Under the pieces are notes generated by a model. That model was given only the letters and a program-made list of their open reading frames with translations. It searched no databases and was not told where the DNA came from. From Clavaria fumosa (Eukaryota; Basidiomycota; Agaricomycetes; Agaricales; Clavariaceae), in contig OX637794.1 in assembly GCA_951802425.1 (NCBI GenBank), forward strand, positions 124,001 to 188,000: DNA of 64,000 bases, written 5' to 3'. Every line of letters begins with the position of its first letter. Within the stretch, counting starts at the first letter, position 1. The translations under genes were made by a program, and so were the position numbers. This document shows positions 762-64,000 of this stretch, in pieces.

Positions 762-1508
762 TGTTACGTCTATGTCGCGGAGGTCGGGCGGAGTAAAGTC
801 CGGGCAGGAATGACAAAGTCCGGGCGTGTATGACAAAGTCCGGGCAGGAGTAACGAAGTCCGGGCGCGGTGGGGCGATCCGGAGTTTGGGCGGAGTTGGA
901 CTTGGGTTCGGACGAGACTTGGCGAACGTATTGAAACGACGCCCTCTGCGGATCAGTGTCTCGGATTTCGGGAAGTCGAAGGAGACGGGTTTCGGGCTTT
1001 AGCGGAGTAGAATGCGAGTGGGCGAGGTTGATTATCAGACTGGCTAGACAAGGCGGTAATCTACGAGTACTTATACTAAAGTCCGGGGCGATGCTAGCGA
1101 CGGAGATAACTCCGGTATGACTACGGAATCTGTTCGTAGCTACGGAGAAATGTCCGGGAGTCAGGAGAAGATCTTTACAACGGGACTACGGGACGGAGAC
1201 GGAATCTGATCGGGACAAACGTTAAACTACTAACTATGATTGTACGGATGTTTCCGGGAGTCCATCAATTGTCCGGGCGATGGGTCCGGGGCAGGACCAG
1301 TTCCTGGTTGCTCGAAGCAACAGCAACTAGTGCGGACATCAGTTGGTGGCCCTTCAGGCACACTTCCTGATCCTGCGCTACGTCGCGCAAGTAAAGTCCG
1401 GCGCTCTGGACATAAGTCCGAGAGCCCGGAGTTGAGAACGGGGGTCCGGAGACCGCCGGAGAAGGTTGGAGAAGGCCGGAGAATAGTCCGGTTGGCACGG
1501 GCGTGACA
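762..1508 (-). repeat. LTR of gypsy element (3' LTR in sense direction)
   Basis: 747 bp, matching 7827-8573 except for four transitions, all at CpG sites. It lies downstream of pol in the sense direction. Read on the plus strand it lies upstream of the antisense accessory gene, so it is the likely source of that gene's promoter region. Confidence 0.95.
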
Positions 1509-1521
1509 GTATCTCCCTCTT
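1509..1521 (-). other. Polypurine tract
   Basis: On the minus strand AAGAGGGAGATAC directly precedes the 3' LTR, where plus-strand DNA priming is expected. A near-identical tract follows the decayed LTR ending at 54277, which identifies that remnant as a related element. Confidence 0.75.
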
Positions 1522-1718: not shown

Positions 1719-2869
1719 ATGGCTGAAGAAGAAAACAGATATGAAGTACAACTCCAGAAACTCCAGGCGGAGATGGACGCGCTGAAGGCGAAGGCGCAGA
1801 GGGAGAAGGAGGCGGCGGAGCGGAGGAGGCAAGAGGAGGAGGAGGCGGAGATGAAACGGAGGGAAGAGGAGGCGGAGCGGAAACGGGAGGAGGAGGAGGC
1901 GGAGACGAGGAGGAAGGAGGAAGAGGCGGGGAAGAGAGCGAAGGAGCGGAGGAAGGAGTTGGAGGCGGCGCGAGCCACGACGAAAATGGTGGCCAGCGTG
2001 GAGGAGTCGGTGCAGCTCCAGGAAGCGGCGGAGAATGCGCTGCGGGAGCAAAAGGAGGAGGAGGCGCGGAGATCGCGGAGGCCCAGGGGACCTCGGCTGG
2101 AGTAACGCGTGAGCGTTGCTCCCAGAAAAAATTAGTAAGTCCTCCTTTCGTCGCCGGAGATCGCGCTAAACTCCGGTCCAGGAATGCAAATGGACGGGGC
2201 CGGCGAGGACCCGGAGTTGCGACCAGTGTCGGGAGAAGCGGGTTGGGTGCGTGTGGCCGGGGAAGGCCAAGGGCAAGGGAAAGGGAAAGGACAAGGGAAA
2301 GCGAGTCGCGCGTCGGGGGACAAAGTCCGACGCCATGGTGGAGTCGGACTTGGATCGGAGGTCGGAGACGGAGGCGGAGGGCGAGCCGGAGGTGGAGGCG
2401 AGGCCGGCGAAAAAGCTCCGGGCCGAGGATTACGAGCCGGAGCTGGATCTCCAGTCCGCGAATTGGTTCCTCCAGGCCAGCGCGGAGAAGAACAACGAGA
2501 TCCGGATGCACCGGAACTCGATGGTGAAGGGGCTGGAGAAGATGACAAGGAGGCTGGAGGCGGCGATCGGGCAGGTGAGTCTTTTCCGGGGCTTCCGCGG
2601 AGTTCGGAACTGAACTCCGGCAGCTCGTCCCGGATTTCGTCGAGCACCTCAACATGAACAAGATGATCGCGGAGAGGGATCAACTTGCGCAGGATAACCG
2701 GATCCTGCGGAGGGTGCTGGAGCGACGAGATCCGGAGTTGGCCCGGGCGGTGGAGCAGGAGAGTGCGCGCTCCCGTCGATCTTCGTTGGTGGGAGTGCAG
2801 CCGGAGACCGGAGATGCGGAGATGGAGGCGGAGGATGCGGAGGGGGAACCGGACTTGGGTCCGGTGTAA
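1719..2869 (+). pseudogene. Antisense accessory gene: coiled coil plus Zn2Cys6-like cluster, frameshifted copy
   Basis: This gene lies on the strand opposite gag-pol. Exon 1 (1719-2134) encodes a Lys/Glu/Arg-rich helix of about 110 residues, a likely coiled coil. Intron 2135-2181 has donor GTAAGT and acceptor TCCAG. Exon 2 (2182-2574) continues the cysteine module; intron 2575-2623 (GTGAGT..GGCAG, phase 0) leads to exon 3 (2624-2869), which has another charged helix and an acidic tail. Across the first junction the protein reads RERCSQKKLECKW, then ten residues on CDQCREKRVGC. This fits CX2CX6C-X10-CX2CX6C of fungal Zn2Cys6 proteins, except that the first Cys is Arg (CGT for TGT). A two-base frame change between about 2043 and 2104 separates the helix from the cluster (local stop TAA 2103-2105), so this copy looks broken unless an unseen splice exists. 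Role unknown; a DNA-binding regulator is an inference. Confidence 0.7.
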
Positions 2870-5900: not shown

Positions 5901-6652
5901 CGTCTTGCTGAACACATCAGCGAAGTCGTGGTATTCCTCCGGGACGGAGGACAGGTCCACCTGTTCGGTCGCGACGGAGCGGACGGTCGTTTCGTTACCA
6001 AAGTGGTGCAGCATGAAAGTCCGAGATCCCTTTGATTCGGAGATCTTGGTAAATTCCACCGCGTTGACAAAACGAATCTCCGTGTGCCGTGGTGGTGATT
6101 TCGGAGGGGGAGTGAGGACCGTAGTTCCCACTTTCGGAGTCGGGGTTCGGGGGTCGGAGGTCGGATTTGATGTTCGGGAATACTCCGGTGTCCGGAATTC
6201 GACACTGCCTCTAACCCAGTCAACCAACGGGTTGTAGCGGGTGAGCCAGTTATATCCGAGGACAGCGGAGCAGGCGGGATCCATTCGGGCTACCAGGAAT
6301 TCTAACTTAAAAAGTTCTCCAGTAGGGAATCGGACGGAGAGGGTGAGCTTGGAGTCGACGATGTCCGTAGAGGAGCCATCGAAGAGTCGGAGTGACATGG
6401 GAGAAATCGGAGTTGTCCGGAGTTTGTTTTCCTTAACGAAGTCGGGACTTATGAAACAGTGCGATGACCCGGAATCAACCAGGGTCCGGAAATACGGGGA
6501 ACGATCTATATTCGGAGCAGACAAAGTTATATACAGGGAGTCGGAGGAAGGGGAAATGGCAGATGCGCCGAGGCAGAACTCGTAACGTGCACTGGCTGGG
6601 GCGGCGCGGTCCTCCGGTAGTGCGGACTTCGAAGGGCCGCTCAGGAGTTTTT
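2946..6652 (-). CDS. pol: Pol polyprotein: protease, RT, RNase H, integrase, chromodomain
   Basis: The frame is open from the frameshift site to 2946. The clear domain part runs from about 6524 (1192 aa; residues counted from there). The aspartic protease has DSG at 17-19. Reverse transcriptase spans about 220-450 with YLDD at 383-386. RNase H has its first Asp near 532. The integrase zinc finger is H767, H772, C802, C805, and the catalytic triad is D835, D895, E931 (D-x35-E). A chromodomain at about 1118-1180 (LYLVRWTGYEGTDEETSW) marks the chromovirus clade and may steer integration to modified chromatin. No frame breaks were seen, so the element may be competent. There is no methionine start; expression should be by -1 shift from gag. 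The stop lies 77 bases from the end of the convergent antisense gene. Confidence 0.95.
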
Positions 6653-7795
6653 TGCCCGAGCAGCCGCAGCCTTAACCTCCGGAACTGTGTCGGAGGTCGT
6701 GACGGTTCGGGCCTTCTTGCCCTGCGTGTTCCGGGACTTCGGGCAGTCCTTCGCAACATGTCCGGTACCTCCGCAAACAAGGCAGAGGTTGTTGTCGAAG
6801 CGGCGTTTCCGTTCCTCCGGAGTTAGCTTCCCGTCTTTGCCGATCTTGTTGTCCTTCGGGGGATCGGTCTTTCGTGCGGATCCGGAGGCGTTCGAAGTTC
6901 CTCCGGAATTGTTGGCGGGTTTGTTTCCTCCGGACGATTGTCCGGAGTTGTTTCCTTGGCGGGGCTTGCTGTCGGATTTAGCGGGCGCGTCACGGGAACG
7001 TTCTCCTTGACGCTCCCAGTATCGCGCGTCGATGTCCTGGCAGAGTTTGCGCAGGACAGGGAGGGAAGTCGGTTTCCCGACTCGGGAGATCTCGTCCTTG
7101 AGGCGGTTCGGGAGTCCGCGGTAATAGTTGTGCCGGAGCGCAGCTTCGTCCCACCGGAGCCGCGCGGCAATCCGGTTAAACTCGACGTTGTACGTCGTGA
7201 TCCGTTGGGAGTCTTTCATGTGGAGGCGGTCGAGTTCGGCCTCCGCATCTCTGACGGGATCGTGCGGTCCGAAGTTATCCCGGAGTTCCTGGACGAATAA
7301 GTTCCAGTCGGAAATCCAGTCGGCGTCCGGGGCTTCGCCTAGGAGAGCGGGTTCGAACCACTCGAGAGCAGTTCCCTGCAGGAAGGAGATGGCAAAGTTA
7401 ATTTTCACCGAGTCCTCGCTGAAAGTCCTCGGGCGGTCTCGGAAATTCAATTCGCATTGGACCAAGAAACTGCGGAGTTTCTTGGTATTGGAACCGTTGA
7501 ACAGTTCCGGTTCCTTGACGCGGGAGGACGACGTGCCTCGTTCCTTGGTGGACGCGGCCAAGGCGCGGATCGCGTTCGCGAGGTTCGGGGCTTCGGTGTC
7601 GGGGTCAGATAAGGGGGAGTCGGGCTGTTCAGCCGGAGGGGAACGGGATCGGGTTTTATGTGGAGCGGGTTGGGCCGGTTCGTCCCCCTCGCCAGGAGGG
7701 GTTGGATTAATGAGTTCTCCAACGTCGGACCCACCAGGGGTCGTCGGTCTGGCACTTGGGCGCAAGCGGCCACTGCGTCGGGGGGGTTCGGACAT
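6641..7795 (-). CDS. gag: Gag protein of Ty3/gypsy element
   Basis: 384 aa, starting at an ATG 32 bases inside the LTR boundary. The N-terminal third is proline- and acid-rich. The middle part carries the retrotransposon gag (capsid) pattern with SFLQGTALEWF and ELRDNFGPHDP, which forms the particle shell. The C-terminal part is basic and glycine/asparagine-rich and ends with a CCHC zinc knuckle, CLVCGGTGHVAKDC, that binds the RNA. The frame is intact. Two codons before the stop lies the slippery heptamer A AAA AAC, which would shift a fraction of ribosomes into pol. Confidence 0.95.
   Translation of the reverse strand: MSEPPRRSGRLRPSARPTTPGGSDVGELINPTPPGEGDEPAQPAPHKTRSRSPPAEQPDSPLSDPDTEAPNLANAIRALAASTKERGTSSSRVKEPELFNGSNTKKLRSFLVQCELNFRDRPRTFSEDSVKINFAISFLQGTALEWFEPALLGEAPDADWISDWNLFVQELRDNFGPHDPVRDAEAELDRLHMKDSQRITTYNVEFNRIAARLRWDEAALRHNYYRGLPNRLKDEISRVGKPTSLPVLRKLCQDIDARYWERQGERSRDAPAKSDSKPRQGNNSGQSSGGNKPANNSGGTSNASGSARKTDPPKDNKIGKDGKLTPEERKRRFDNNLCLVCGGTGHVAKDCPKSRNTQGKKARTVTTSDTVPEVKAAAARAKNS
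6647..6653 (-). promoter_or_regulatory. -1 ribosomal frameshift site A AAA AAC
   Basis: In the gag frame the codons read GCA AAA AAC TCC TGA, so the heptamer sits in the X_XXY_YYZ register that classical -1 sites require. The pol frame is -1 relative to gag and is open from this point into the protease. I did not fold the downstream RNA for a stimulatory structure. Confidence 0.8.
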
Positions 7796-7812
7796 TGTGA
7801 GCGCAGAGTGGT

Positions 7813-7824
7813 CAGTCTGATAAT
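7813..7824 (-). other. Self-primer binding site
   Basis: Two bases inside the 5' LTR the sense strand reads ATTATCAGACTG. Its exact reverse complement is the predicted first 12 bases of the RNA (8107-8096). Priming of minus-strand DNA by the RNA's own 5' end is known for the Tf1/sushi group of chromoviruses. No match to a tRNA 3' end was evident. Confidence 0.75.
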
Positions 7825-7826
7825 AC

Positions 7827-8573
7827 TGTTACGTCTATGTCGCAGAGGTCGGGCGGAGTAAAGTCCGGGCAGGAATGACAAAGTCCGGGCGTGTATGACA
7901 AAGTCCGGGCAGGAGTAACGAAGTCCGGGCGCGGTGGGGCGATCCGGAGTTTGGGCGGAGTTGGACTTGGGTTCGGACGAGACTTGGCGAACGTATTGAA
8001 ACGACGCCCTCTGCGGATCAGTGTCTCGGATTTCGGGAAGTCGAAGGAGACGGGTTTCGGGCTTTAGCGGAGTAGAATGCGAGTGGGCGAGGTTGATTAT
8101 CAGACTGGCTAGACAAGGCGGTAATCTACGAGTACTTATACTAAAGTCCGGGGCGATGCTAGCGACGGAGATAACTCCGGTACGACTACGGAATCTGTTC
8201 GTAGCTACGGAGAAATGTCCGGGAGTCAGGAGAAGATCTTTACAACGGGACTACGGGACGGAGACGGAATCTGATCGGGACAAACGTTAAACTACTAACT
8301 ATGATTGTACGGATGTTTCCGGGAGTCCATCAATTGTCCGGGCGATGGGTCCGGGGCAGGACCAGTTCCTGGTTGCTCGAAGCAACAGCAACTAGTGCGG
8401 ACATCAGTTGGTGGCCCTTCAGGCACACTTCCTGATCCTGCGCTACGTCGCACAAGTAAAGTCCGGCGCTCTGGACATAAGTCCGAGAGCCCGGAGTTGA
8501 GAACGGGGGTCCGGAGACCGCCGGAGAAGGTCGGAGAAGGCCGGAGAATAGTCCGGTTGGCACGGGCGTGACA
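7827..8573 (-). repeat. LTR of gypsy element (5' LTR in sense direction)
   Basis: 747 bp. On the minus strand a TATA-like element (TATAAGTA, 8140-8133) is followed about 30 bases later by CAGTCTGATAAT (8107-8096). That 12-mer is exactly complementary to the site just inside the LTR, so 8107 is the predicted transcript start. U3 would be 8573-8108 and R plus U5 8107-7827. Confidence 0.93.
8133..8140 (-). promoter_or_regulatory. Predicted TATA box of genomic retrotransposon RNA
   Basis: Minus-strand TATAAGTA lies about 30 bases before the predicted RNA start at 8107. The spacing is that expected of a TATA promoter. The same arrangement occurs in two other LTRs in the window, at 17311/17343 and 56472/56504. 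Confidence 0.7.
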
Positions 8574-8578
8574 GCAAT
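8574..8578. repeat. Target-site duplication GCAAT, right
   Basis: Exact copy of 757-761, directly after the CGTGACA terminus of the right-hand LTR. Confidence 0.95.
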
Positions 8579-11867: not shown

Positions 11868-14800
11868 GTGATGAGGCTTCGTTGGTCATGTTCCTGTCTA
11901 ACCTCATGTGATCATGTGACTTTGTTTAATGTGAAACCAACCATGCATGCAGTCATTTGCAAGAAAGGAGCAACACGAGCCATAGAGAGGGTTTTGGAGG
12001 TTAAGGAGAGGACAAGGGGCAGGAAGGTGGTAGGGAGAGATCAGCCAGTATTCCAAGAAAGGAGGGCTGTATCTCAATCACCATCAAAGAAACGAGGCAG
12101 AGAGATAAGTCCTGAAGCCTTGGCTTCAATGACTTTGGAATTTGAGACACCAAAAAGTCCTACTCCCAAATGTTTGCGGAAGGGAAAGGTGTGCAAACCA
12201 AACACACTGTATGACCATATGTCTTACTCAAAATTATTTAGACTCAAAATGACTTCCTGCGAGAGTGGAAAGAGGATGCGTGCAGTCTTCACCTCTCTGC
12301 AATAGTTGGACTTAAGGCTCTCCCACATGACTCTAGTTGTGTGGTTTGTGGTGGACCATTAGCCTTATTTCGTTGTCTTGACTGTTGCCAGGGCCAACAA
12401 GTTCTTTGTCACAACTGTTGCCTGGTACAACATCAACATCTTCCTTTCCATCATATACGGAGATGGACAGGGAAGTTCTTTGAGAGAGAGGACCTGGGAA
12501 ATTTAGGACTCCTTATTCACCTTGGACATGATGGGAAACCTTGCCCAACACTCTTTGCCAGTTCTGTTCACACCCCTGGGGATGACATCTGGGAGGATGA
12601 TCTTGTTCACAAGGGAGAATCAGAAGGGGACATACAACCAGATGTTGAGGATGGTGCATTTCAGAGGGGAAAAAGCATGGTGTTTGTGACTACCTCAGGA
12701 ATCTACAAGCATCAAGTGCAATGGTGTAATTGTGAAGATGCCCTACCAGCACACATGCAGCTGCTTTGTATGCGATTTTTCCCATCTACCCTCAAGAGGC
12801 CCTCCACAGCGTTTACCTTCAATGTCCTTGATCAGTTTCATATTGAAACTTTGGAGTGCCACACATCAGCTTGTAATTTCTACACCAAGCTGCAGAGAAT
12901 AACATACAACAGGCTTCCTTCACTTGTTCCAGTATGTATATCACACATGGAAAGTCTCTTTGAAAAATTATTGATTATCTTTTTCCAGGATCGTTACCGA
13001 GAACTCATGAGGGTATCAAGGGAGTGGAGGTACCTCAAGTCCTTGAAGCGGACAGGCGTTGCACATAACCCCAACCAGATGCAAAAACCTGGAGATTTGG
13101 CACTCTTTTGTCCCAGTTGTCCTCAACCTGGAATAAATGTCTCAGAGCATGAAGTCAAACATGCAGAAGACCCGTAAGTAATTTCACATCTTGTGAAGAT
13201 GTTCAGAGTAACAGGAGCATATAGATCCATCTATGAACCATCAATTGTTGCAGATGGCAATTTCAAACTGGAAAATGTTGTAACTAAGAAGCCAGAGGAG
13301 GATGTCTATCTCAGTGATGGATGAGGTTATATGGTTGAAGATGCAGTATATCAGGAACATATTAAGGCATCTATTGAGATAAAACAGGTCCAAATTTCCT
13401 GCATTATTTCCTCTATAGTTATTGACAATTCACTTTCAGAAGTCTAAATGTCACAACCACCGTGCAATAACCCAAGCAAATGGACACAGTGGATTGCAAA
13501 GAAACCATTTACTTGCTACTGGAGTGGCTGCATCTGCATGTGGACGCCATGGCTGTTTCTATCCTCATAGTGTAGTGGATCTCCAAAAAGGAGAGAGGTG
13601 TGTGGGGAATGCCATTGAATTCTGTTCTCCCAATTGACATTGCCAAAGACAGATGAACATTGACTATTCTTTCTGTCAGGCTCTTAAGCAAGTCTTACTT
13701 GCCAAGAGAGTCATTTTTGTATATGATGTTGGATGTGAGTGGCACATCAATTTTCAGCAGCGAGTTGATGCCAGTGGGCACTTGTATGTGCGGGAGGATC
13801 TTGAAGTGATAACTGCAGTTGGAAAATTCCACTTAGGTGCTCACATCCAAAAATGTTTTGCACAGTTCTCTTTGAACTTTGTGCAAGGTGTGGGGCAGTT
13901 GGATGGGGAAGTATTGGAAAGCCTTTGGTCATCACTTAATAAGGCAGCAAGCCATACAAGGGGCATGTCTCAACCACATCGGCAGGAGATACTGGACAGC
14001 TACATGCAGGATTCCAATTGGAAGAAAATGTCTAGAGCATGTAAGCAAATCCCCATATTCTCACATGTGTCTTTGCTGATGACTTGGCACAGCACAATCT
14101 ATTGTCACCAAGTTAAAAAAAGCAATGACTGAAAGAGAGGACAAGAAGTTAGCCCTGGATGAGTTGACAAAACGGCTTGAACCAACATTGGTATTAGAAT
14201 GGAAGGACCTAGAGGAGAAGGCAATGACTCAACAGGGAGATGCTCTTTCGGTGTACGATGTCACAAATGTGAAAGGCCAGTACTTGGAAAACATATCTAT
14301 AGTTGCTATATTGCCTGGCTAATGGCATACACTTTTACACAGAACCAGGTTGTGCTGAGGTTCTACTGGAGCTTTCTCAAAAACATCGTGCTGCTGGAAA
14401 TCTATCTGGCATATCTAATCTCTTGGCTCTAGGATTGAGCATAGAAGCCACTCAGTGAGTCGTATTGCAAAGTTCCATTGCCTGTCATTCACAACAAAAT
14501 AGGGCCTCTTTGGTTGCCTATACACAGTCTTTGAGGCAACCCTCACTCTCTGATAAAAAGGAGTTGGAGGAAAAGTGAAGGCGCCTCCAGATTGAGATCA
14601 GCAAATATGAGAAGAAATGGGCCACTTTATCTCTCTTTGAAGAAGCCATTGAACTGCAGGCAAACCATTCATCTCAGCTCGATGAAGAAGTCAGTGTCGA
14701 TGTTGCTGCTTCTGATGATGAGGAAGATGTAGTAGTACAGCCCGAGGCTGTGACACTATTTCTGCCCTCCAATTTGTCCAAAGAAGTTCGGCAATTACAT

Positions 14801-40870: not shown

Positions 40871-43800
40871 CTAGATCTGTGCTGTGAGAGCTATTCTCCT
40901 TGCCCGCTTGCTGTTTTCCTCATCTGAAAATATTAAATAATGCCTGATGGGAGTGATTGGGACATGCTCACCACTTTCTGAATGAATTCGCTTCCGGGTG
41001 CCTTGGGTATCATTCACAGTTTTCTTGATGACAACAAATTCTGGCCCAGTCCACTCAAAGGTTTTGCAATAGGGAAGATCTTTCAACTCTTTGCCCATCT
41101 CTGCTCGAAAATGAAATAGGAGGTTAGGATGATGCTTGCAGAAGTGCTTGTCCATCCTTGCATGGAGACAACTCTGTGAGAGACCAGGGTTGGAAGAGTC
41201 TTCATCCTCCTTGTACTTGCAAATCGTCACAGCAAGGTGAACAATAGATGGGTTGAATAGAGCAGATAGGGGATCCACCAACTCTTCTCCAATCTTGAGC
41301 CATTGTGATTTGCTGAAGGACTGCTGGAAGTCCATGTACTTCTTCAAAATTGCTGTGCGCTGGGCCTTCATCATGTTTTGAAGTGCACCTACTTCCAAAC
41401 TTGTTTGATCCTTGATCTCCAAGTCATATGTCCAGCATAGCTCAAGCACATTTCCAAGTGCAATGAGGTCCAAAAGGCCTTGAGCAGTGGTTGGGTCTAT
41501 TGAATGATCACCCACTGTCAATTTGCATCAGATGGGGAGAGGAAAGGAGAATAGTTAGGGGCAGACCATCTTGGATATATTCATGAGAGGTATATTCATC
41601 AATTGCCATTGCCAAGATGTGCCACAGCAATACCTCAGTTTCTGAATGGTTGGTATTTGTCACACCATGTAAGAGCACCCCAGTGTGGATGTGGCCCCAG
41701 CATGAGTCACGAATAGTTGAGGTGCAATACATATGACGACCCAGCACAATTGAGTTGTCAACTGTGAGCACATAATGTGGGGTATTTGGTCGCATGAAGC
41801 TATTTCACATTTAGCAAATTGAATAAAATGTAAAAAGTACACCCACAAGACGGTGCCTGGCTGGATGATAACAGCCTCATGCTCAAAACATGAGGTAGCT
41901 GCATCATCCACCTCAGTGGTGGAAAAGGCAAGGGGTGATGACATATCCCCAGCTGAGCAGGACTCCATATTGTGGCGGTGGTGACAAACAACCCAATATT
42001 TGGTCCCAGTGATAGCATCAATGGCAGTGGCAAGACCATTTGCATCAATGTGAATCCAGCTCATTGCATTTTTCATGGCAGCTGTAGCCCATATAAGGTG
42101 ATCGGTGGGCGGATTGGCATGAGAAAAACCATGAGTGCCTCTTGTTTGTTGCCATGCAATACTGTGGGAGTTCAGGTGACTTGTGAGGGAAATTAAGTCT
42201 CAGCACAGGCAGTGCAGATTTATTGAACACTCACTGGTAGGGTATGCAATGTCGATACTCCAACCCAAGTGGTATGTCAAGAACATTGAGGATGTGTCCA
42301 TTGTTGGGCATTTGGCTGTGATGGAAGAAGTCAAGCAGGGTGCCATGGCAGTGTCGCTCACTGTTGGTGCTGTCGATGGACTGATCTGTGTATAATTTGT
42401 AAGCATATTTAGGCCATGGCATTAGTCATACCATACCTATCATGCTTCTTGTTCTTGTGATATTTGCATAGTTCCTCAATGTTGAAATTGAGAACCCCTC
42501 ATCTTGGAGAGGTGTGTTGAGAACAAGAATATGGCGATGCCGGAAGATGTCCTGGAGAGTCCTAGTTGAGAGCTGCAGGAATTCCATGTATGTTGTAACA
42601 AAGATGTTTGACACTGGTGGGTTCAGCAAGTCAAATGGTATGCATCGAGATGAGGCATGGTGGTGAGGTGGGTGACCATCAACATATCCAGCTTCAACAC
42701 TGGCATGGATGTCCACCAACAGCCTAGTTTCTTTGCTAGCCTGTATTTACCAGTGTTGGAATAGTACATGCCTGATGAGCAGTTAACTCACAGTGGTCTT
42801 TGATGTCTGGAAGTGGATAGAGATAGGTGCTGCTTTAGGATCTGGAAGATATGCTTGGATCTTCACTGGGGGTGACAACTATAAAGCATATCAGCAGAAA
42901 TTGGCAGTCACAGGGAGAAAAACTCACTCCAGGGTTATCTGTGGCATTTATGAGGGTATTTGGTTCCTCAGGCTCAAAACAAATGTTAGATAATATCCCA
43001 TCATTATTTAATAAGACTCACATCTCCTTCAATATCATAGTAAACTGGAAAGAGCATTGTGGCCTCTTCATCAACACTATTGCCTAACTCCTTACTTTGA
43101 CCTGCTCCAGACTTTCTTGCAGATTTCCTATGTTTCCAAGTGCTTGTGGGACTGGACATTGGTGGTGTGGGAAGCAAGTACACAGATTGAGTTGGAGATG
43201 ATGGTAAAGATGATATTGGGGATGAACTTGCTGAGGCAGATTTCAGGAAGGTTAAAGGCAGTGCAGTGGGAAGGTATTTTGCAGCCAATGAATTGACTGC
43301 ATTGATAGCTGCATCTGTGTCTTCCTCAGCTTCAAATACCACATCAAAAGTGGGCTTCCAGTCATTATCATTGTACTGCAACCCCAGACATAACTGTAGG
43401 TGATCCTGTGCCTGAGGCAGTGTGATATTGCCTGCTGCAAAATTGCGTATTATATCCCATGCATTTGGGTCATTCAGAGGCAGGGGGTGAAGAAAATCAA
43501 TATCTCTATTGAGGAATGATCAGCTTGTGTCCTCCATGAAAATGTTCACTCACTGTGTTTCCTCTGTTTCTGGTGTTTCCTTAGGCCCTGCCCCTTCTTG
43601 GGTCTGCTCCTTGTCCTGTGGAAGTGGGTGGGAAATGTCCATATCCCTATTGATGTGTGATTAGCCAATATCCTCCCTGAAAATGCAGACTGACTGTGTC
43701 TCCTGTGTCTCTTGTGTCTCCTGAGGCCCTGCCCCTTCTTGGGTCTGCCCATCATCTTGTGATGGTGGGTGAAAAGTGTCCACATCCCTATTGATGTGTG

Positions 43801-45507
43801 ATTAGCTTGTAAGCTTGTATCCTCCCTGAAATTGCAGACTGACATCTGCTGTGTCTCTTCTTCCTGGGTCTGCTGCTCATTCTGTGGTGGTGGGGAAGAA
43901 ATGTCCATGTCTCTATAGAAGAGTGATTAAATGGCATCCTCCCTGAGAATGCCAACTCACTGTGTCTCCTGTGCCTCTTGTGCTTCCTGAGGTGCTGCCC
44001 CTGTATTCTCATGCATCTCCCCTTCATTAGGAAGAAGTGCAGGTTGAATTTGGGGGAATAATACATCTGGTATATCACCTGAACCAAAGAAGTGAGTAGA
44101 TGAACTCTGGATAAATGTGGAACATGCTCACGTGTAACAAACCAATCCTGTAATTGTGGTATGTTGCCTTTGCACTCAAGTGCTGCTCCCATCTCATGAA
44201 GTTCAATAACTTCAGCCTTGTACTCCATCCCACATGATGATCTTAGTAATGCCTTCCACATCATTTTCTCTATAGCCAGTAGTGAACTTGGCTTTCCACC
44301 AAGTGACTGTCCCAACTGGGCCAATGAATCATAAAGATTAACCCATAAAAGGATAATAAAAAGCTTAACTCACCAAAAAGAGCTGCTCTTTATTGATGGA
44401 CTGTGAGGCACTATTCCGTGGCACTAAGAGGATGAGAGGGGAGATCGCCAGGGCAAGTTGTGTGTATTGGATTATGTTTCTTATCACTGCTGCATTGGTA
44501 AGACCAGCAGGCAGTGCAACTTGGTGATCTGCAGCCTGCCTGGTTTTCATTGTCAGCAGAAATTCAAGAATATTAAAAACTAAATGCACATATGAAGGCT
44601 GTGGAGTAGGTCACTTTGTGGACCCTGGCTCTTGAGGTATGACTTGACATTGAATTAGTTATGATCTGTGATATCCAAAGTAACACTCACTGGTCTAAAT
44701 GCACTGACTGCAAAGGCTACAGAATGCCACTGTTCTAAAACATCATGTGTGGAGCGGTGAATAGCATGCTGGGATGCCTTGAGCAGGTTTGAAATCGTGG
44801 CCTTGAACCTGCGAGGCTCCTCAGCATCCCCCACATCCCCCACATCCACATCCCACACATCCAGGTCCTGGACTGTTGAAGTGCTTGCCTCTAGCACAGG
44901 AAGAGCAGGCAGGGCAGATATGAGAGGAGGGGCAGGAAGGGCAATATTATGTGGTGAATGTACAAGGTGCTGTATAGCCCTGTTGGCAGTTGATGGGACA
45001 ATTGAAGTCCATTTCTCAAGATTTTTGAGGATTCTCTCCAGAGTGGGTGAGAGAGTTGGAGGGTGAGAGCGGGGGGTGGGATGGAGAGCAGGATGTGGAG
45101 GCCAGTCTTGGACCCACAAGAGGACATCAAGGAGTTGGTACATAAGAATAATTTTACCAAAGTAGGCCTGTTCTAATGGTATGGGTGTGTGGCTGATTTG
45201 GCTAGGGATCAAAATGGCAAGGACATAGGCATTTGCTTTGTCAACTGCCAGGGGTTCATTTTCAACTGTATCTATTTCTTGTGCAAGCATCTACAGACTA
45301 TCAAGGACAGTAACTGTGCTGGTAAACCTGAACACTCACCTTGATGAGATTGTGTGCAGGAGAAGGAAGTACAGTTGGGCAGTGGCTTTCTACCCATGCA
45401 AGGAGAGGTCCTGGTTCATGAATGCACCCATTTCGCCATGGGTAAGACTTTAGGACAGAAGAATTGATTCGAATATCACGGAGGCAGTGGAATTGGGTTT
45501 GAGACAT
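40871..45507 (-). CDS. JmjC-like 2-oxoglutarate/Fe(II) oxygenase protein, left paralogue
   Basis: Divergent twin of 48357-53191. The first seven exons (45507-45340, 45290-44691, 44598-44374, 44315-44132, 44078-43961, 43912-43844, 43787-43695) are mirror images of the twin's and encode the same residues. An extra duplicated exon follows at 43646-43554, then an exon from about 43508 ending PVYYDIEGD. Later exons are clearly homologous but diverged: VDGHPPHHHASSRC and RHRHILVL (42430-42720), DIPLGLEYRHCIPY (about 42260). The JmjC-like core has WIHIDANGLATAID (HxD, about 42050) and MRPNTPHYVLTV (distal His, about 41790). The C-terminal helical part ends at 40871. JmjC enzymes hydroxylate or demethylate proteins. 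The target is unknown; a nuclear role is an inference. Exon limits after 43554 are less certain. Confidence 0.7.
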
Positions 45508-45593: not shown

Positions 45594-46497
45594 ACCTGCT
45601 CAAATAGAGTAGCTTTGTATTTGTTTAGGCCTCAAATATATTTGAGGCCTAAACAAATACAAAGCTACTCACCTGACCTGCTCAATATATCTAAAGCCTA
45701 AACAAATACAAAGCTACTCACCTGACCTGCTCAATATATTGAAAGCCTAAACAAATACAAAGCCACTCACCTGACCTCATAACTGGCTCAAATATATTTG
45801 AGGCCTAAACAGATACAAAGCTACTCACCTGACCTCATGACTGGCTCAAATATATTTGAGGCCTAAACAGATACAAAGCTACTCACCTGACCTCATGACT
45901 GGCTCAAATATATTTGAGGCCTAAACAAATACAAAGCTACTCACCTGACCTCATGACTGGCTCAAATATATTTGAGGCCTAAACAAATACAAAGCTACTC
46001 ACCTGACCTGCTCAACATATTTAAGGCCTAAACAAATACAAAGCTACTCACCTGACCTGCTCAATATATTGAAAGCCTAAACAAATACAAAGCCACTCAC
46101 CTGACCTCATAACTGGCTCAAATATATTTGAGGCCTAAACAGATACAAAGCTACTCACCTGACCTCATGACTGGCTCAAATATATTTGAGGCCTAAACAG
46201 ATACAAAGCTACTCACCTGACCTCATGACTGGCTCAAATATATTTGAGGCCTAAACAAATACAAAGCTACTCACCTGACCTCATGACTGGCTCAAATATA
46301 TTTGAGGCCTAAACAAATACAAAGCTACTCACCTGACCTGCTCAACATATTTAAGGCCTAAACAAATACAAAGCTACTCACCTGACCTCATGACTGGCTC
46401 AAATATATTTGAGGCCTAAACAAACACAAAGCTACTCACCTGACCTGCTCAATATATTTAAAGCCTAAACAAATACAAAGCCACTCACCTGACCACA
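45594..46497 (-). repeat. Minisatellite array, left, upstream of left JmjC-like gene
   Basis: Tandem units of about 47 and 58 bp containing gcctaaacaaatacaaagct and actcacctgacc, oriented with the left gene. Variants include cctcatgactggctc and cctgctcaatatat. The outermost part (45607-45670) is a perfect 64-bp palindrome where unit orientation flips. Confidence 0.92.
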
Positions 46498-46954
46498 TCA
46501 GTGTCTCAGACAAAGGGGGCAAGGATTGGGTCAAATATAGAAATGGCTGGAAGGATCACATGGTTGTTGATAATTGTTAAATACTGTACTACTTGTTGTT
46601 GAAGTTCCAACTCATACCCCACCTTTCCCTGTTATAAAGTCTGCATGTGTGCCCTTCATTTATGTGTGTTCTGTCACATTTCATTTTTGGTATCAGCCTT
46701 CCCTGCCAACTTGAAGGCAGACCCCAGCAGAACATGCTTATTGGGTTGACAAAGAGACCAGCAAATGGATGGCAAACAAATGAAGTCATTCAGCACCTGT
46801 GCACATTGATAGGACCAGCAGTAACAGGACAAGTCTTCATTTCTGTCTTCTCAAGTCCTATTCTCTTCAGTGGCAACAAGAGTCTGCACTGAACATGCAT
46901 AAAAAGGTAATTTTTTAATTGTAAATAAATGACTGGGAGACACTGATGAGGTCA
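46498..46954. other. Centre of the palindrome, no gene recognised
   Basis: About 450 bases of non-repeated DNA between facing arrays. A short plus-strand frame at 46647-46892 and a minus one at 46589-46789 show no domain. It may be the unduplicated spacer around which the inverted duplication formed. Confidence 0.4.
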
Positions 46955-48264
46955 GGTGAGTGGCTTTGTATTTGTTTAGGCTTTAAATATATTGAGCAGG
47001 TCAGGTGAGTAGCTTTGTATTTGTTTAGGCCTCAAATATATTTGAGCCAGTCATGAGGTCAGGTGAGTAGCTTTGTATTTGTTTAGGCCTTAAATATGTT
47101 GAGCAGGTCAGGTGAGTAGCTTTGTATTTGTTTAGGCCTCAAATATATTTGAGCCAGTCATGAGGTCAGGTGAGTAGCTTTGTATCTGTTTAGGCCTCAA
47201 ATATATTTGAGCCAGTTATGAGGTCAGGTGAGTGGCTTTGTATTTGTTTAGGCTTTCAATATATTGAGCAGGTCAGGTGAGTAGCTTTGTATCTGTTTAG
47301 GCTTTAGATATATTGAGCAGGTCAGGTGAGTAGCTTTGTATTTGTTTAGGCCTCAAATATATTTGAGCCAGTCATGAGGTCAGGTGAGTAGCTTTGTATT
47401 TGTTTAGGCCTCAAATATATTTGAGCCAGTCATGAGGTCAGGTGAGTAGCTTTGTATTTGTTTAGGCCTTAAATATGTTGAGCAGGTCAGGTGAGTAGCT
47501 TTGTATTTGTTTAGGCCTCAAATATATTTGAGCAGGTCAGGTGAGTAGCTTTGTATTTGTTTAGGCCTTAAATATGTTGAGCAGGTCAGGTGAGTAGCTT
47601 TGTATTTGTTTAGGCCTCAAATATATTTGAGCCAGTCATGAGGTCAGGTGAGTAGCTTTGTATCTGTTTAGGCCTCAAATATATTTGAGCCAGTTATGAG
47701 GTCAGGTGAGTGGCTTTGTATTTGTTTAGGCTTTCAATATATTGAGCAGGTCAGGTGAGTAGCTTTGTATCTGTTTAGGCTTTAGATATATTGAGCAGGT
47801 CAGGTGAGTAGCTTTGTATTTGTTTAGGCCTCAAATATATTTGAGCCAGTCATGAGGTCAGGTGAGTAGCTTTGTATTTGTTTAGGCCTCAAATATATTT
47901 GAGCCAGTCATGAGGTCAGGTGAGTAGCTTTGTATTTGTTTAGGCCTCAAATATATTTGAGCCAGTCATGAGGTCAGGTGAGTAGCTTTGTATCTGTTTA
48001 GGCCTCAAATATATTTGAGCCAGTCATGAGGTCAGGTGAGTAGCTTTGTATCTGTTTAGGCCTCAAATATATTTGAGCCAGTTATGAGGTCAGGTGAGTG
48101 GCTTTGTATTTGTTTAGGCTTTCAATATATTGAGCAGGTCAGGTGAGTAGCTTTGTATTTGTTTAGGCTTTAGATATATTGAGCAGGTCAGGTGAGTAGC
48201 TTTGTATTTGTTTAGGCCTCAAATATATTTGAGGCCTAAACAAATACAAAGCTACTCTATTTGA
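46955..48264 (+). repeat. Minisatellite array, right, upstream of right JmjC-like gene
   Basis: Same units as 45594-46497 in opposite orientation: caggtgagtagctttgtatt, tgtttaggcctcaaatatat and gagccagtcatgaggt. It is about 400 bp longer than the left array because a multi-unit block is repeated. The perfect 64-bp palindrome at its outer end (48194-48257) mirrors 45607-45670. Confidence 0.92.
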
Positions 48265-48356: not shown

Positions 48357-51300
48357 ATGTCTCAAACCCAATTCCACTGCCTCCGTGATATTCGAATCAA
48401 TTCTTCTGTCCTAAAGTCTTACCCATGGCGAAATGGGTGCATTCATGAACCAGGACCTCTCCTTGCATGGGTAGAAAGCCACTGCCCAACTGTACTTCCT
48501 TCTCCTGCACACAATCTCATCAAGGTGAGTGTTCAGGTTTACCAGCACAGTTACTGTCCTTGATAGTCTGTAGATGCTTGCACAAGAAATAGATACAGTT
48601 GAAAATGAACCCCTGGCAGTTGACAAAGCAAATGCCTATGTCCTTGCCATTTTGATCCCTAGCCAAATCAGCCACACACCCATACCATTAGAACAGGCCT
48701 ACTTTGGTAAAATTATTCTTATGTACCAACTCCTTGATGTCCTCTTGTGGGTCCAAGACTGGCCTCCACATCCTGCTCTCCATCCCACCCCCCGCTCTCA
48801 CCCTCCAACTCTCTCACCCACTCTGGAGAGAATCCTCAAAAATCTTGAGAAATGGACTTCAATTGTCCCATCAACTGCCAACAGGGCTATACAGCACCTT
48901 GTACATTCACCACATAATATTGCCCTTCCTGCCCCTCCTCTCATATCTGCCCTGCCTGCTCTTCCTGTGCTAGAGGCAAGCACTTCAACAGTCCAGGACC
49001 TGGATGTGTGGGATGTGGATGTGGGGGATGTGGGGGATGCTGAGGAGCCTCGCAGGTTCAAGGCCACGATTTCAAACCTGCTCAAGGCATCCCAGCATGC
49101 TATTCACCGCTCCACACATGATGTTTTAGAACAGTGGCATTCTGTAGCCTTTGCAGTCAGTGCATTTAGACCAGTGAGTGTTACTTTGGATATCACAGAT
49201 CATAACTAATTCAATGTCAAGTCATACCTCAAGAGCCAGGGTCCACAAAGTGACCTACTCCACAGCCTTCATATGTGCATTTAGTTTTTAATATTCTTGA
49301 ATTTCTGCTGACAATGAAAACCAGGCAGGCTGCAGATCACCAAGTTGCACTGCCTGCTGGTCTTACCAATGCAGCAGTGATAAGAAACATAATCCAATAC
49401 ACACAACTTGCCCTGGCGATCTCCCCTCTCATCCTCTTAGTGCCACGGAATAGTGCCTCACAGTCCATCAATAAAGAGCAGCTCTTTTTGGTGAGTTAAG
49501 CTTTTTATTATCCTTTTATGGGTTAATCTTTATGATTCATTGGCCCAGTTGGGACAGTCACTTGGTGGAAAGCCAAGTTCACTACTGGCTATAGAGAAAA
49601 TGATGTGGAAGGCATTACTAAGATCATCATGTGGGATGGAGTACAAGGCTGAAGTTATTGAACTTCATGAGATGGGAGCAGCACTTGAGTGCAAAGGCAA
49701 CATACCACAATTACAGGATTGGTTTGTTACACGTGAGCATGTTCCACATTTATCCAGAGTTCATCTACTCACTTCTTTGGTTCAGGTGATATACCAGATG
49801 TATTATTCCCCCAAATTCAACCTGCACTTCTTCCTAATGAAGGGGAGATGCATGAGAATACAGGGGCAGCACCTCAGGAAGCACAAGAGGCACAGGAGAC
49901 ACAGTGAGTTGGCATTCTCAGGGAGGATGCCATTTAATCACTCTTCTATAGAGACATGGACATTTCTTCCCCACCACCACAGAATGAGCAGCAGACCCAG
50001 GAAGAAGAGACACAGCAGATGTCAGTCTGCAATTTCAGGGAGGATACAAGCTTACAAGCTAATCACACATCAATAGGGATGTGGACACTTTTCACCCACC
50101 ATCACAAGATGATGGGCAGACCCAAGAAGGGGCAGGGCCTCAGGAGACACAAGAGACACAGGAGACACAGTCAGTCTGCATTTTCAGGGAGGATATTGGC
50201 TAATCACACTCCAATAGAGATATAGACATGTTTCACCCACTGTCACAGGAAGAGTGTGCACAAAAGGAATGTTTTATGCTTGGTATGTTCTCACTTTGTC
50301 TTCCTTGCATGTGAGAACTAAGGGTAGCAATCTGGGTCCCAAATTACCAATAGCTCCAACAGAGGATTCACCAGCCACTCCAACACCAGTGGCCCCAATC
50401 ACTCCAGCAACCCCAGCTGCTCTAGAGACTACACCTCCAGCTACTCCAGTCACTCCAACAGCTCCAATGACTCCAGCAGCTCCAGCAGCTCTGGGTATAA
50501 CAGCACCTCCAGCAACTTCATCTGCTCCAACCACTCCAGCAATTCCAGTGACCCCAGCTGCTAGGGATGTGAGACTCCCTCTACCCTCATCACCCACTTC
50601 AATGTCAAACTCCCCCTTGACAACATCATCTTCATCCCCTGAGCCATCTCTTCAGAAATCACCTTCATTGCCAATAGCAGAACAAGGTCAGGACCAAGGT
50701 CTTGACAGTGAAATGGAAGTTGAGGATAATGATGAGGATGGCAAGGGGGAGGCTGAAATGGAGGATGAGGATGGTGAAGATGAGGTCTATCACAAAGGGG
50801 AGAGTGAAAAGGAGAGTCAAGGGGACAGTCAAGAGGAGAGTGGAGAGGAGGGGGAGGTTGAGGTTGAGGTTGAGGAGCCTTCACAGTCCAGGAAACCACA
50901 AACCCACCACCAGTCTAAAAATGAGCAGCAGCATCTGAAAAAAGGAATGGCTAAACACAAGGGGACAAAGCAATACCCTATATATGTTGACTTGGAGGGT
51001 GATGTAAGTACTTTTCTGAATTGCTTTCTCTTTACATTAACAATTTTTAGCATTATACACGCAACACCCTTCTGGACAATGTGGATGATGAGGTCAAGGT
51101 GTGTGTTCATTAATAGCTCTTTTTACCTCTGATATATCGAGTTATCCATAGTTGTCTGATGAGGAGATCATCTTCCAAGCTTATCTACCATGCCGTGATG
51201 CACTGCCCATTGAGGTGCACTTCCAAACTGCTGAAAATGCAGTAAGTACATCTATATTTGAAATATTATTAGATGCTAATGGACATTACAAAGACTGAGA

Positions 51301-54480: not shown

Positions 54481-55751
<1,271 letters not shown>

Positions 55752-59900: not shown

Positions 59901-61700
59901 TGTAGTAGGCTGTACTGGTGTTGGCTGCAAATGGGTGTTCATGGCCAGGTTCTTCAGGGGGTCTTGTTACACATCAGAGACACTAGACAGAACCTTGGAG
60001 GATGTAGAGGCTGAGTGTAAAATGTTCAGAGAATGAAAATATATGTTATCCGAAGTATCCAGTATCAGATCCGGTGGAGTCCGATGTTCAGATCGAAAGT
60101 TCGAGGGGCCGGCAATGATGAAGGCCAGTGGATCAATGGGTATGACGAGGGGTGAGCCTGCTAAAGATCACAGCACAATGTGGGCATTCAAAAAGCTGGA
60201 TTTCCATAGAGTCTGGTACATACTTATGTACATTTTTCTAAGTACAGCAAATCTGATCCTACGAAAATCTCTGGAAGCTACAGAAGGCAATGCAATATCA
60301 TGTACAAGGTCATATAGGGGCCATAATTCATAAATGAGTCATGCGGTGTAGTAGGCTGTACTGGTGTTGGCTGCAAACAAGTGTTCATGGCCTGGTTCTT
60401 CAGGGGGTCTTGTTACACGACGTAGACACTAGACAGAACCTTGGAGGAAGTAGAGACTGAGTATAAAATGTTCAGAGAATGAAAATATATGTTATCCAAA
60501 GTATCCGGTATCGGATCCAGTGGAGTCCGATGTTCGGATCGAAGGTTCAAGGGGCCGGCAACGACAAAGGCTAGTGGATCAATGGGTATGACGAAGGGTG
60601 AGCCTGCTAAAGATCCCAGTGCAATATGGGCGTCTAGAAAGCTGGATTTCCATAGAGTCTGGTACATACTTATGTACAATTTTTCTAAGTACAGCAAATC
60701 CGATCCTACAGAAATCTCTGGAAGCTACAGAAGGCAATGCGGTATTGTGCACAGGGTCATATAAGGGCCATAATTCATAAGTGAGTCGGAGGGATGAAAT
60801 GTCCGATAACTAGCATATGTCTGGACCACTCATAAAATGAAGGAAAGTGTGGCTGGTACAGCAAAGGGGTACTAGGAACAATGGGCAAAGCACTGCAAAG
60901 GGTTGAAATGTTTAAATGATTGGATGGTTGAAAGGGATCACAATATGAAATTTACAGCATGGTATGTGAAATAAAGGAAGGGGAATGAAATAGTGAGTAT
61001 GTCGAGTGCTGACCATGTTGGAGTGATGAAATAGAGAGGTGTGGGCGGTGTGTATGACCTGCGGGCTGTGATCATCATGGCAGACTGGAGACCGGAGAGT
61101 CCGATATTGGATGTTTATCAGATGTCCCGGATGTTATCAGACAGTATCGGATCGTTATCGGTCGCTGTTGCCTTTGATGCCTAAATATCCAGATAGTCAG
61201 TATCTGTGATGTTTCCTTGTCTAAACCGCATATCATCCTTACAGCGGTTTGGAGGAATCAAATGTCCGATGACCAGCACATGTCTGGACCGCTCGTAAAA
61301 TGAAGGAAAGCATAGCTGGTACAGCAAAGGGGTACTAGGAACAATGGGCAAGATACTGCAAAGGGTTTGAAATGTTTAAACTAGTGGACACTTGAAAGGG
61401 AGCACAATATGAAATTTACAGCATGGTATATGAAATAAAGGATGGGGAATGGAACAGCAAGTATGTCGAGCACTGACCATGCTGGAGTGATGAAATAGAA
61501 GGGTGTAGACAGTGCGTGTGACCTGCAGGCTGTGATCATCATGGGGGACTGGAGACCGGAGAGTCTGATATCAGACATTTATCGGACGTCCCAGACGCTA
61601 TCGGTCGCTGTTGCCTTTGATGCGAAAAATATCTGGATAGTCGGTATCTGTGATGCTTCCTTGTTTAAACTGTATATTATCCTTCCATTCTCCTGGGGGC
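59901..61700. repeat. Two pairs of tandem ~450-bp duplications, probably LTR-derived
   Basis: The block starting tgtagtaggctgtactggtg at 59901 recurs at 60347 (period 446). The block containing atgtccgat at 60799 recurs at 61262 (period 463). Together they separate the truncated third element from the accessory gene of a fourth, minus-strand element. By position they should include that element's 3' LTR, but LTR limits could not be fixed. Short frames inside are not genes. Confidence 0.7.
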
Positions 61701-61827
61701 TGAAAATGCAACCGTCCTCGATTGCAACCAAACAAAGCCAAATAATCGTTTATTGATTGTGAAGTATGTGTTGTGTGGGCGCGCATGGGTCCAAACAGGC
61801 TCTTGTGCTTTCTCCATCAACAGCAAT

Positions 61828-63307
61828 ATGTCAACTTATTCAACAATGGAAAACTTCGATTCCCTACTCTTCCAAAATGCGGTCCAGGCGATGATAGAGG
61901 CACGGGCCATGGCGCTGGGTGAAGAATTACCGGAACAGGGGCAGGATGGTGAGTACGCAGAGTGGGTGCAGATGTATGGGGGCGATGCTGTGCATGGTGT
62001 ATCTTTCTTTCTTTTTCACATTGCACTGACAATTTATGGAATGATTTTCTTGCCGGCTACATTGCTGCAATTGATGATGACGTGGAAGTGGACGAAGGAC
62101 TCATCCTCGTTGTGCGAAAGCTCAAGAAGTGGCGGAGGCTCTGCGGGGACGAATGGACTGCCGAGCAGGCGAGGAAACAGGAGGAGGCCGAGGCCGAAAA
62201 GAGACGCACGAGCGAGGAGAGGGCGGCCGCCGAGAGAGCCGCAGCGGAGGAGAGGCGGACGGAGGCGGCGAGGGCTGCCGAGAAGAGGGCGCAACTCGCC
62301 CGGGCGCATCGGATTGTCGGGAGCGAGGACGGTGAGGAAGAGGAGAGGGGGGTGCAGCAGCAGCAGCAACAGCAACAGCAACAACAACAATACCAGCAAC
62401 AGTTGTGCCGGCCGTGACGGATCTGACGGAGGCGGTGGAGCTGGGCGTAAATGAAGAAACGGATCCGTGGGGGCAGTCAGTGCGGGAGCCGGGGGGTCAT
62501 CACCTAGTCATCAAGGTCCCCCCATTCTGGAGCATCGGGTGTGCGGGCGGATGACGGTGACGCCGGTATGGGTTGAGATTGCGAGGGGGGCAGCAGAGAA
62601 ACGAGGGCGAGGGAGGAGGACCGGAGCGGGAGCGGACATCAGGTCCCGAGCTGCATGGCAACCTGGAGACAAGGTGAGTTGTCAAATGGGGTTTTTTTGA
62701 GCCTTAGGTCTCTGATCCGGAAAATAGGAACACAAGCCGGCCTGCGAAGCGTGCGCCCGGAAGCGGCGCTCATGTTACGGAGTGGAAGGAGTGGCATGTC
62801 AGTGGTGTCGGACCTACAAGGTGTCGTGCAGTCTCTCGGCTGTACGAGGTAAGTAATATTCTTTTTATTTCGGTGTTGAAATAATCTGAAAGGTATGTTT
62901 CAGGAATGAAAGCCGAGAGGGTGGCGGTGTCCGGCACCGGAGGTAAGTCAAGAAAATATCGGATCTGCATTAGCTAATGTATCGGAGCAGGTCTGAAGGT
63001 GATGGAGGCAACTGGGAGCAAGAGGCCGAGGCGGGGTGCGACGCGGGCACCAGTCCGTGAAGATACGACCCCAGAGGAGGAGGAAGAAGACGAGATTGAG
63101 GATGATGATAGCGTGGAGATGGTGGAGCCGCCAGCAAAGCGAAAGAAAGTGGAGGTGGGTCCGAGTCGGAAAGGTAAGGAGCGGGAGACGGTGGCAGGGT
63201 CGTCTATGAGGGAGGCGCTCCAGATGATGGAAAGGGGGGCTGATCAGGTGAAGGCCAGAGCCGAGTTGCTCTGGATGCTTCTCCTTGGTGAGCTGTTTAC
63301 TGTATAA
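61828..63307 (+). CDS. Antisense accessory gene: coiled coil plus Zn2Cys6-like double cluster
   Basis: Exon 1 starts at 61828 (MSTYSTMENFDSLLFQ) and runs to about 61998. A second exon from about 62035 reads WNDFLAGYIAAIDDDVEVDE, then an Arg/Glu/Ala-rich helix of about 80 residues to a CAG/CAA tract at 62356-62400, where the frame changes. The stretch 62467-62673 continues to a GTGAGT donor. Clean splices follow: introns 62674-62727, 62849-62903 and 62943-62990, all in phase. Exon 62728-62848 encodes CEACARKRRSC, seven residues, CQWCRTYKVSC: CX2CX6C twice, the spacing of fungal Zn2Cys6 DNA-binding domains. The last exon (62991-63307) has an acidic run, a PPAKRKKVEV nuclear-signal-like patch and a helical tail. 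It converges on a gypsy pol ending at 63506. The first intron's acceptor is unclear and the glutamine tract may have broken the frame, so activity is uncertain. Confidence 0.68.
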
Positions 63308-63505
63308 ATGTTTTGTGTGTTTTTCTTTTGCAATTGGATTACTATATTGTGTAAGAGAAGTGAGTAAAGGATGTGAGAGTGTAAGAAAAAGGTTAAAAGG
63401 GACGCCAGGTATAAAGTTTGGACTTGTCCGAAATTTCAATTATTATTTTTTGGTCAAAGATCAATGGATTAAAGAAAAAATAAGGGATATGATAGAGAAA
63501 AATGC

Positions 63506-64000
63506 TTAATAGCGAGGCCGAAGGTTTCGGGTTGCTCCGGAGCGTTGTGGGCGAGATTTCGGAGCGTCGGTGTCGGTGGCTTCGTTATCAAATTCATCAG
63601 ATAGTTCAGCAGTTTGGTTTTCCCCATCCTTGGTGTTGGTAGAGTTATGTGAGGCCTCGTGTGGTTGATAGCGTGAGATGTGCTCTTTTATCTCCATCGC
63701 TTGATTGATGATAGATGTGACTGGAATCAATGTTTGCAATCGCAGATAGTATGGAATGATGCGGAAAGCTGCATAGTGGATCTTTGAGACAGCGCCATCG
63801 AGTTCCGAGAGGATATATGCACTGTATTGAGTTCGGCGAACAATGATCATCAGTCCGAAGAATCACGGTTTTGTCTTCCGATTTAGTGCCATTTCTACAG
63901 CCAAATTGCAGATCAATACCAGTGATCCGGGTTTGAAATCGTAGTTGATGATAGAGTTCCGGTGTGTGTCGATGAACTGCTTGACAGATTGTTTTCGGGC
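63506..64000 (-). pseudogene. C-terminal end of gypsy pol, fourth element, cut by window edge
   Basis: The minus frame from the window edge reads INYDFKPGSLVLICNLAVE and, after one TGA near 63866, MIIVRRTQYSAYILSELDGA and FRIIPYYLRL, ending in an acidic then basic tail. This is the region after the integrase core of basidiomycete gypsy elements. There is no chromodomain, so it is a different family from 762-8573. The stop sits where CGA would fit (KP-Arg-FFG), a CpG transition. The element continues beyond 64000. Confidence 0.72.

Follow-up and report, generated by a model that had tools for sequence, protein, structure and literature searches.

The locus at 61.8-63.3 kb of the window, i.e. 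the whole stretch of 64,000 nucleotides that was analysed (C1:124001-188000 of a 48.8-Mb, 17-contig genome), raises the question of what a spliced gene with a double cysteine cluster is doing on the strand opposite to gag-pol of a gypsy-type LTR retrotransposon. A sequence-only reading had proposed that this gene lies between pol and the 3' LTR and that its product has the cysteine spacing of the fungal Zn2Cys6 transcription factors. Is this indeed a gene of the element, is the cluster of the Zn2Cys6 type, and what might the protein do? The features of the window that bear on these questions are collected in Table 1.

Table 1. Antisense genes in the window and parts of the elements to which they belong.
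Feature	Position	Strand	Basis or remark
Family A antisense gene, exon 1 of a decayed copy, begins MENFD	61846-61989	+	homology to intact copy L071
Family A exon 2, charged coiled-coil-like region, frame broken, acceptor AG changed to GG	62040-62673	+	homology to L071
Family A exon 3, double cluster CX2CX6C-X7-CX2CX6C	62728-62848	+	
Family A exon 4	62904-62942	+	homology to intact gene
Family A exon 5, acidic and basic tail (KRPRR, PPAKRKK)	62991-63307	+	
Family A pol, C-terminal part (aa 1124-1287 of the intact pol)	63509-64000	-	tblastn with intact family A pol
Family A LTR-related sequence, 2 or 3 partial overlapping copies	59924-61687	-	blastn with L071 LTR
Family B antisense gene, exon 1, with coiled coil and first half of the cluster; lacks 16 bp and one Cys	1719-2134	+	
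Family B exon 2, with third Cys, second half of the cluster (CDQCREKRVGC) and a basic stretch	2182-2574	+	
Family B exon 3, C-terminal helix and acidic tail	2624-2869	+	
TATATAA, 64 bp before family B start codon	1655-1661	+	
Family B 3' LTR	762-1509	-	other LTR 7827-8574
Family B pol, 1241 aa, RT-RNaseH-integrase-chromodomain	2946-6671	-	
Family B gag	6641-7828	-	
Family C antisense gene, decayed, without first half of the cluster, with a hexanucleotide expansion	54513-55260	+	

The charged region, the cluster CEACARKRRSC-x7-CQWCRTYKVSC and the acidic and basic tail that had been described are all present in the window copy of what we call family A, and matches to the family A pol and LTR are found on the opposite strand on either side of the gene. 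The start of the gene had to be moved, since the conserved start codon is found at 61846 and not at 61828. Besides having lost the intron-1 acceptor, the window copy has an exon 2 that is 59 nt shorter than that of the intact copy and contains 13 stops when it is spliced in the manner of the family; judged by its sequence, it could not make the full protein. The window locus is one of ten full-length DNA matches at 100% (rounded), to which one at 99% can be added. Each of the ten, the window's own included, lies about 37-293 kb from a contig end, and these near-identical copies thus look like subtelomeric duplications, not separate insertions. A family A LTR (L009 5516-6331) is present in reverse orientation within the pol of the window's family A element, just to the right of the window.

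An intact family A copy, L071, was found in a young group on contig C5 (L071, L072). Its LTRs of 918 bp are 99.9% identical and have TG...CA ends, TCGG is present on both flanks of the element, and a TGG-starting stretch resembling a primer site follows the 5' LTR. The element contains a gag-protease frame, a pol of 1287 aa in which no chromodomain was detected at E<=0.01 and, between pol and the 3' LTR, the antisense gene, which has five exons and encodes 440 aa. The four introns (57, 55, 55 and 48 nt) are all of the GT-AG type, the ATG lies 158 bp from the 3' LTR, and the stop lies 235 bp from the stop of pol. Because the gene does not overlap pol, any constraint on it is its own. At the DNA level, 61800-63320 has 70 matches in the genome; at the protein level, the 41-aa cluster exon has 142, of which two have E near 0.003 and the other 140 E<1e-10. 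Among the 42 matches listed for the intact gene, 33 are full length at 98-100% identity, so that recently spread copies keep the antisense gene; likewise, 33 of the RT matches listed sit in a 1287-aa pol frame.

The sequence-only reading had proposed to test whether cluster matches sit antisense beside a gypsy pol, and most of them do. The family A RT fragment has at least 150 matches, which were compared with the 142 cluster matches, taking the nearest within 12 kb. For 122 of the 150 listed RT matches the nearest cluster is antisense and downstream; in 6 cases it is on the same strand, in none is it antisense and upstream, and 22 have no cluster. The distance between the two is 2.9-4.1 kb in 115 of 128 cases and, conversely, 119 of the 142 cluster matches have an antisense-downstream partner among the RT matches listed. 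The possibility that a host transcription factor gene came to lie beside a transposon by accident is ruled out by this co-occurrence with RT, which holds for families A, B and C. The view that we are dealing with an accessory gene of gypsy LTR retrotransposons, antisense to gag-pol and located between pol and the 3' LTR, is thus supported. A scan of viral contigs with the family A RT fragment gave two pattern matches, neither of which was confirmed.

Selection was analysed on 60 loci (L011-L070), 56 of which passed the coverage filter and, together with the intact copy, gave 41 distinct rows; dN/dS, codon-position and length-change figures refer to the 31 rows outside the window's clade. All four introns have a GT donor in 41/41 rows. 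The acceptors of introns 2-4 are AG in every row and that of intron 1 in 31/41; the other ten rows make up the window's clade. The six cysteines of the cluster are kept in all 41 rows; with this and with purifying selection, two of the three outcomes that could have refuted the sequence-only reading went in its favour. A comparison of dN/dS across copies, which had been proposed, reveals purifying selection: the Nei-Gojobori value is 0.29 for the whole gene and lies below 1 in 465/465 pairs, and by part it is 0.18 (exon 1), 0.38 (exon 2), 0.17 (cluster exons) and 0.23 (exon 5). The distances at codon positions 1 to 3 are 0.148, 0.157 and 0.300. Relative to the reference, exon 2 differs in length in 30/30 rows (26 of them by a multiple of three) and exon 5 in 26/30 (23 of them by a multiple of three); for introns 1 to 4, length changes are multiples of three in 20/30, 7/29, 0/29 and 0/3 cases. 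Counting against our explanation, 20 of the 31 rows carry one or more stops ahead of the last codon, a few of these rows only near the end, and the ATG is lost in 4 of the 41; many broken single copies are, however, what is expected of old transposon copies. Another idea denies the antisense gene altogether and sees in it the shadow of a frame on the sense strand, or a host gene carried along free of selection. It could draw on the GC-rich gene region, in which the sense strand, too, has open frames (147-459 aa in the 31 rows), but it carries next to no weight: a shadow or chance frame is ruled out by the splice sites (four antisense introns with conserved GT-AG), by third codon positions that vary twice as much as the others in the antisense frame, by dN/dS and by the length changes, and the gene is free of pol overlap. 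On these patterns of sequence change, the antisense gene is almost certainly real and under selection.

The window contains two other copies of such genes. The one at 1719-2869 had been regarded as sharing the position, the strand and a CX2CX6C motif with the first, which is correct, but it belongs to a family of its own (family B), and its cluster is double: one half had been missed because an intron separates the halves. In the window element, the LTRs of which are 748 bp long and 99.5% identical, the gene again lies between pol and the 3' LTR. An alignment of the window copy with 12 relatives gives the cluster as CERCSQKKLEC-x10-CDQCREKRVGC with the intron between the halves; the pattern is complete in 7/13 rows, and the window copy itself has lost one Cys (TGT to CGT) in addition to its 16-bp deletion in exon 1. 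Splice sites are kept in 13/13 rows, and dN/dS is 0.29, with values below 1 in 76/78 pairs. The TATATAA motif preceding the ATG is also present in 11/12 fetched relatives. Among 30 family B RT rows, the gene is antisense and 2.9-4.2 kb downstream in 27 and absent in 3. A 20-bp unit, AAAGTCCGGGCAGGAATGAC, is repeated 3.5 times in both family B LTRs (795-865 and 7860-7930) and may provide regulator sites.

The piece at 54481-55245 had likewise been taken for a copy with the same arrangement. This is true of its relatives, which form family C and have a double cluster antisense to pol, but not of the window copy, which lacks the first cluster half and has none of the 120 compared RT rows within 8 kb. 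The family C gene has no intron; relatives such as L089 encode CARCVRLGMGC-x10-CVACAAAKQWC in one long frame, and a family C protein query gave 151 matches, many of them in stop-free frames of >330 aa. Linkage was examined with 120 RT rows of a 64-78% group and 148 listed family C matches: the nearest listed match is antisense and downstream in 79/120, antisense and upstream in 3, on the same strand in 11 and absent in 27. With the RT rows ranked by score, an antisense match at 2.5-6 kb accompanies 40 of the top 50, 25 of the 41 that follow and 4 of the 29 at the bottom. Within the decayed window gene, GGAGAA is repeated about 53 times without error (54903-55219). One C-type element (L085/L086, C5:3488401-3491300) has an antisense charged coiled coil without the cysteine cluster, which could reflect loss of the cluster or an older state. 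In a fourth family (D, L091), a coiled-coil-like exon and an intron are followed, by reading, by CERCAFASVRC-x7-CDWCVRQKRSC, and the opposite strand contains a stretch that is 47.5% identical to the end of the family B pol. All three window copies are decayed. Close to five contig ends (C1, C4, C5, C11 and C12), copies from all three families are repeatedly found together, with a B-to-A spacing of 60-70 kb, and a large subtelomeric block seems to be common to these ends.

Whether the cluster is of the Zn2Cys6 type is a separate question. The spacing CX2CX6C-X7-CX2CX6C had been equated with that of Zn2Cys6 proteins, and this spacing does fit in family A; a layout with X7 or X10 between the CX2CX6C halves is common to families A to D, all of which fit the cysteine spacing of PF00172. 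Protein database searches gave 2, 4 and 17 relatives (labelled jgi, ena or from an unnamed source), and the antisense cluster gene has likely spread to other species; 12 of the 17 relatives of family C have the full pattern, the remaining 5 being truncated or shifted. A chance cysteine pattern is ruled out, because it arose in 0 of 20000 shuffles for each of four proteins (A, B, P0007 and P0020). The profile search against PF00172 that had been proposed gave a divided answer: Zn_clus matched A (17.5 and 11.7 bits) and B (14.7 and 9.6 bits), in register and over most of the domain, but these scores are below the curated Pfam cut-off of 21 bits, which was never reached by families A and B or the family C relatives wherever bit scores were shown. 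In a comparison with a host profile built from the three Zn2Cys6 domains that eight host loci yielded, profile-profile probabilities were 52 percent for A, 73 for B and 3 for C; between the clusters themselves they were 69 percent for B-C, 29 for A-B and 2 for A-C. The PROSITE pattern PS00463 fits 7/8 A, 3/3 B and 0/3 C peptides tested. An NCBIfam search matched nothing. In two AlphaFold models a short helix is placed at each CX2C motif, but at low confidence (pLDDT about 64 in the first and 56-64 in the cluster of the second).

A rival interpretation holds that the cluster is another zinc or cysteine motif, unrelated to Zn2Cys6 and perhaps used for protein contacts. It could explain why Pfam scores remain below the threshold, why P0007 (12.2 bits) gives only a partial alignment, and why a profile search of the PDB returned no Zn2Cys6 structure; a Foldseek search with the 41-aa model gave 0 matches. 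It also fits family C, which is no closer to the three-domain host profile than shuffles in which the cysteines were kept fixed (269/500 as good). On the other hand, B beat 492 and A 460 of the 500 shuffles in the same test (8 and 40 as good), so that the host profile supports B and, weakly, A; Zn_clus is the most frequent Pfam match among the 17 family C relatives (11/17, best E 0.0026); and the spacing fits in four families. We consider this interpretation doubtful. Based on the spacing and the sub-threshold profile scores, we call the cluster Zn2Cys6-like without assigning it to the family. It probably binds zinc.

What could such a protein do for the element? It consists of a charged coiled-coil-like region, the cluster, basic patches and a second helix or an acidic tail, and long helices are predicted in its structure; given these helices, the DNA-binding-type cluster and the basic patches, the protein would enter the nucleus, dimerise and bind DNA via the cluster. 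The gene would be transcribed from a promoter beside the 3' LTR. Its introns would stay in the sense genomic RNA, where they have the wrong orientation for splicing, and would thus survive reverse transcription and persist; laboratory retrotransposition reporters rely on the same antisense-intron logic. The protein would then tune transcription from the LTRs of its own element, in a manner resembling that of HBZ in HTLV-1. HBZ is encoded by an antisense spliced gene at the 3' LTR and is a nuclear regulator of the bZIP type. The proteins of families A and B differ in this respect, as they have no bZIP match; Pfam scans of A, B and the family C relatives at E<=10 did not return this domain. Self-regulation through the LTRs is our first choice, followed by a role in integration or import and then by antagonism of silencing, and we put the probability that the protein regulates its own element at about 0.45. 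CGG/CCG is more frequent than in any of 300 shuffles not just in the two LTRs but in both pols and the A gene as well, and there is thus no LTR-specific site signal.

Alternatively, the protein might act after transcription, as a nuclear-import or integration-site factor that tethers the pre-integration complex to chromatin. The basic patches and the DNA-binding-type cluster would serve this purpose equally well, and the family A pol, lacking a detectable chromodomain, might need another tether. However, family B has both a chromodomain and the antisense gene, and a gene that lies beside the 3' LTR with start signals of its own would fit a regulator and not a packaged protein. We regard this alternative as unlikely. 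Less probable again is the possibility that the protein, or the antisense RNA over the 3' part of the genomic RNA, hinders silencing by the host. The antisense position makes double-stranded RNA possible, an option that is discussed in a review on plant elements (PMC7264820). Furthermore, in-frame stops in old RT copies of families A to C are mostly TGA, which fits C-to-T decay of CGA and active genome defence by methylation or a RIP-like process. A pure RNA role, on the other hand, does not predict dN/dS values of 0.17-0.38 per exon or invariant cysteines.

Returning to self-regulation, a wider reading can be formulated in which gypsy lineages that are far apart, at least two in number (identity between the A and B pols is 22% over 940 aa), each have their own captured, intron-bearing antisense host gene for a sequence-specific zinc-cluster protein matched to their own LTR, i.e. 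mobile regulator-operator pairs; we put this forward tentatively, as a possibility with the odds somewhat against it. Self-regulation is directly testable, since there are hundreds of copies, a recent burst, a DNA-binding-type motif and clear selection. If it is true, retrotransposons would carry transcription-factor-like genes around the fungal genome as raw material for new regulators. There is also a caution here for annotators: a hypothetical protein that resembles a zinc-cluster protein may in some cases be encoded by a transposon.

Antisense accessory genes as such have been reported before. Those of plant gypsy elements (aORF-3R; Grande gene23, RIRE2 and Retand) resemble the genes studied here in that they lie antisense between pol and the 3' LTR, are present in most copies and are suspected of a nuclear or DNA-binding role, and they differ in that no zinc cluster is described in the accessible parts of the two papers (PMC7264820, PMC11963269). 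According to the latter, the Retand antisense proteins carry TRP28 (PF04195), which is predicted to bind DNA; our Pfam scans of A, B and the family C relatives at E<=10 did not return it. HBZ of HTLV-1 is also named there (PMC11963269). In fungi, brtn is an antisense gene of the Boty-like gypsy elements of Botrytis cinerea and thus likewise an extra antisense gene in a chromodomain-bearing element, but its host is an ascomycete, and the descriptions in citing papers, on which our comparison is based, mention no zinc cluster (PMC7264820, PMC8365987, PMC4227169, PMC5987419). A survey of fungal gypsy elements refers in a figure legend to additional ORFs of unknown function (PMC2864245), and the role of gypsy antisense accessory genes is called an open question in the review (PMC7264820). 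The claim of novelty made at the outset therefore needs to be narrowed: among the titles and abstract openings covered by our literature search, which included few subscription papers, no antisense zinc-cluster gene of a retrotransposon is described, but an extra antisense gene in a fungal element was already known through brtn. Antisense accessory genes in gypsy elements are known, and a zinc-cluster-like motif in one of them may be new. Compared with GAL4-type regulators, the proteins share the spacing CX2CX6C-X5-12-CX2CX6-8C; unlike them, they are borne by retrotransposons, have the cluster in the middle of the protein after a long coiled coil, and score below the Pfam cut-off, and Pfam scans of A and B gave no other regulator domain.

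Two further features of the window were observed. Identical proteins are encoded on both strands, at 43788-45290 (-) and 48574-50076 (+), around 58-bp tandem repeats (45631-48233), and the segment 43788-50076 is a large inverted duplication. The ORFs at 12242-14132 resemble what we take to be the CxC2 cysteine cluster and the transposase of KDZ DNA transposons.
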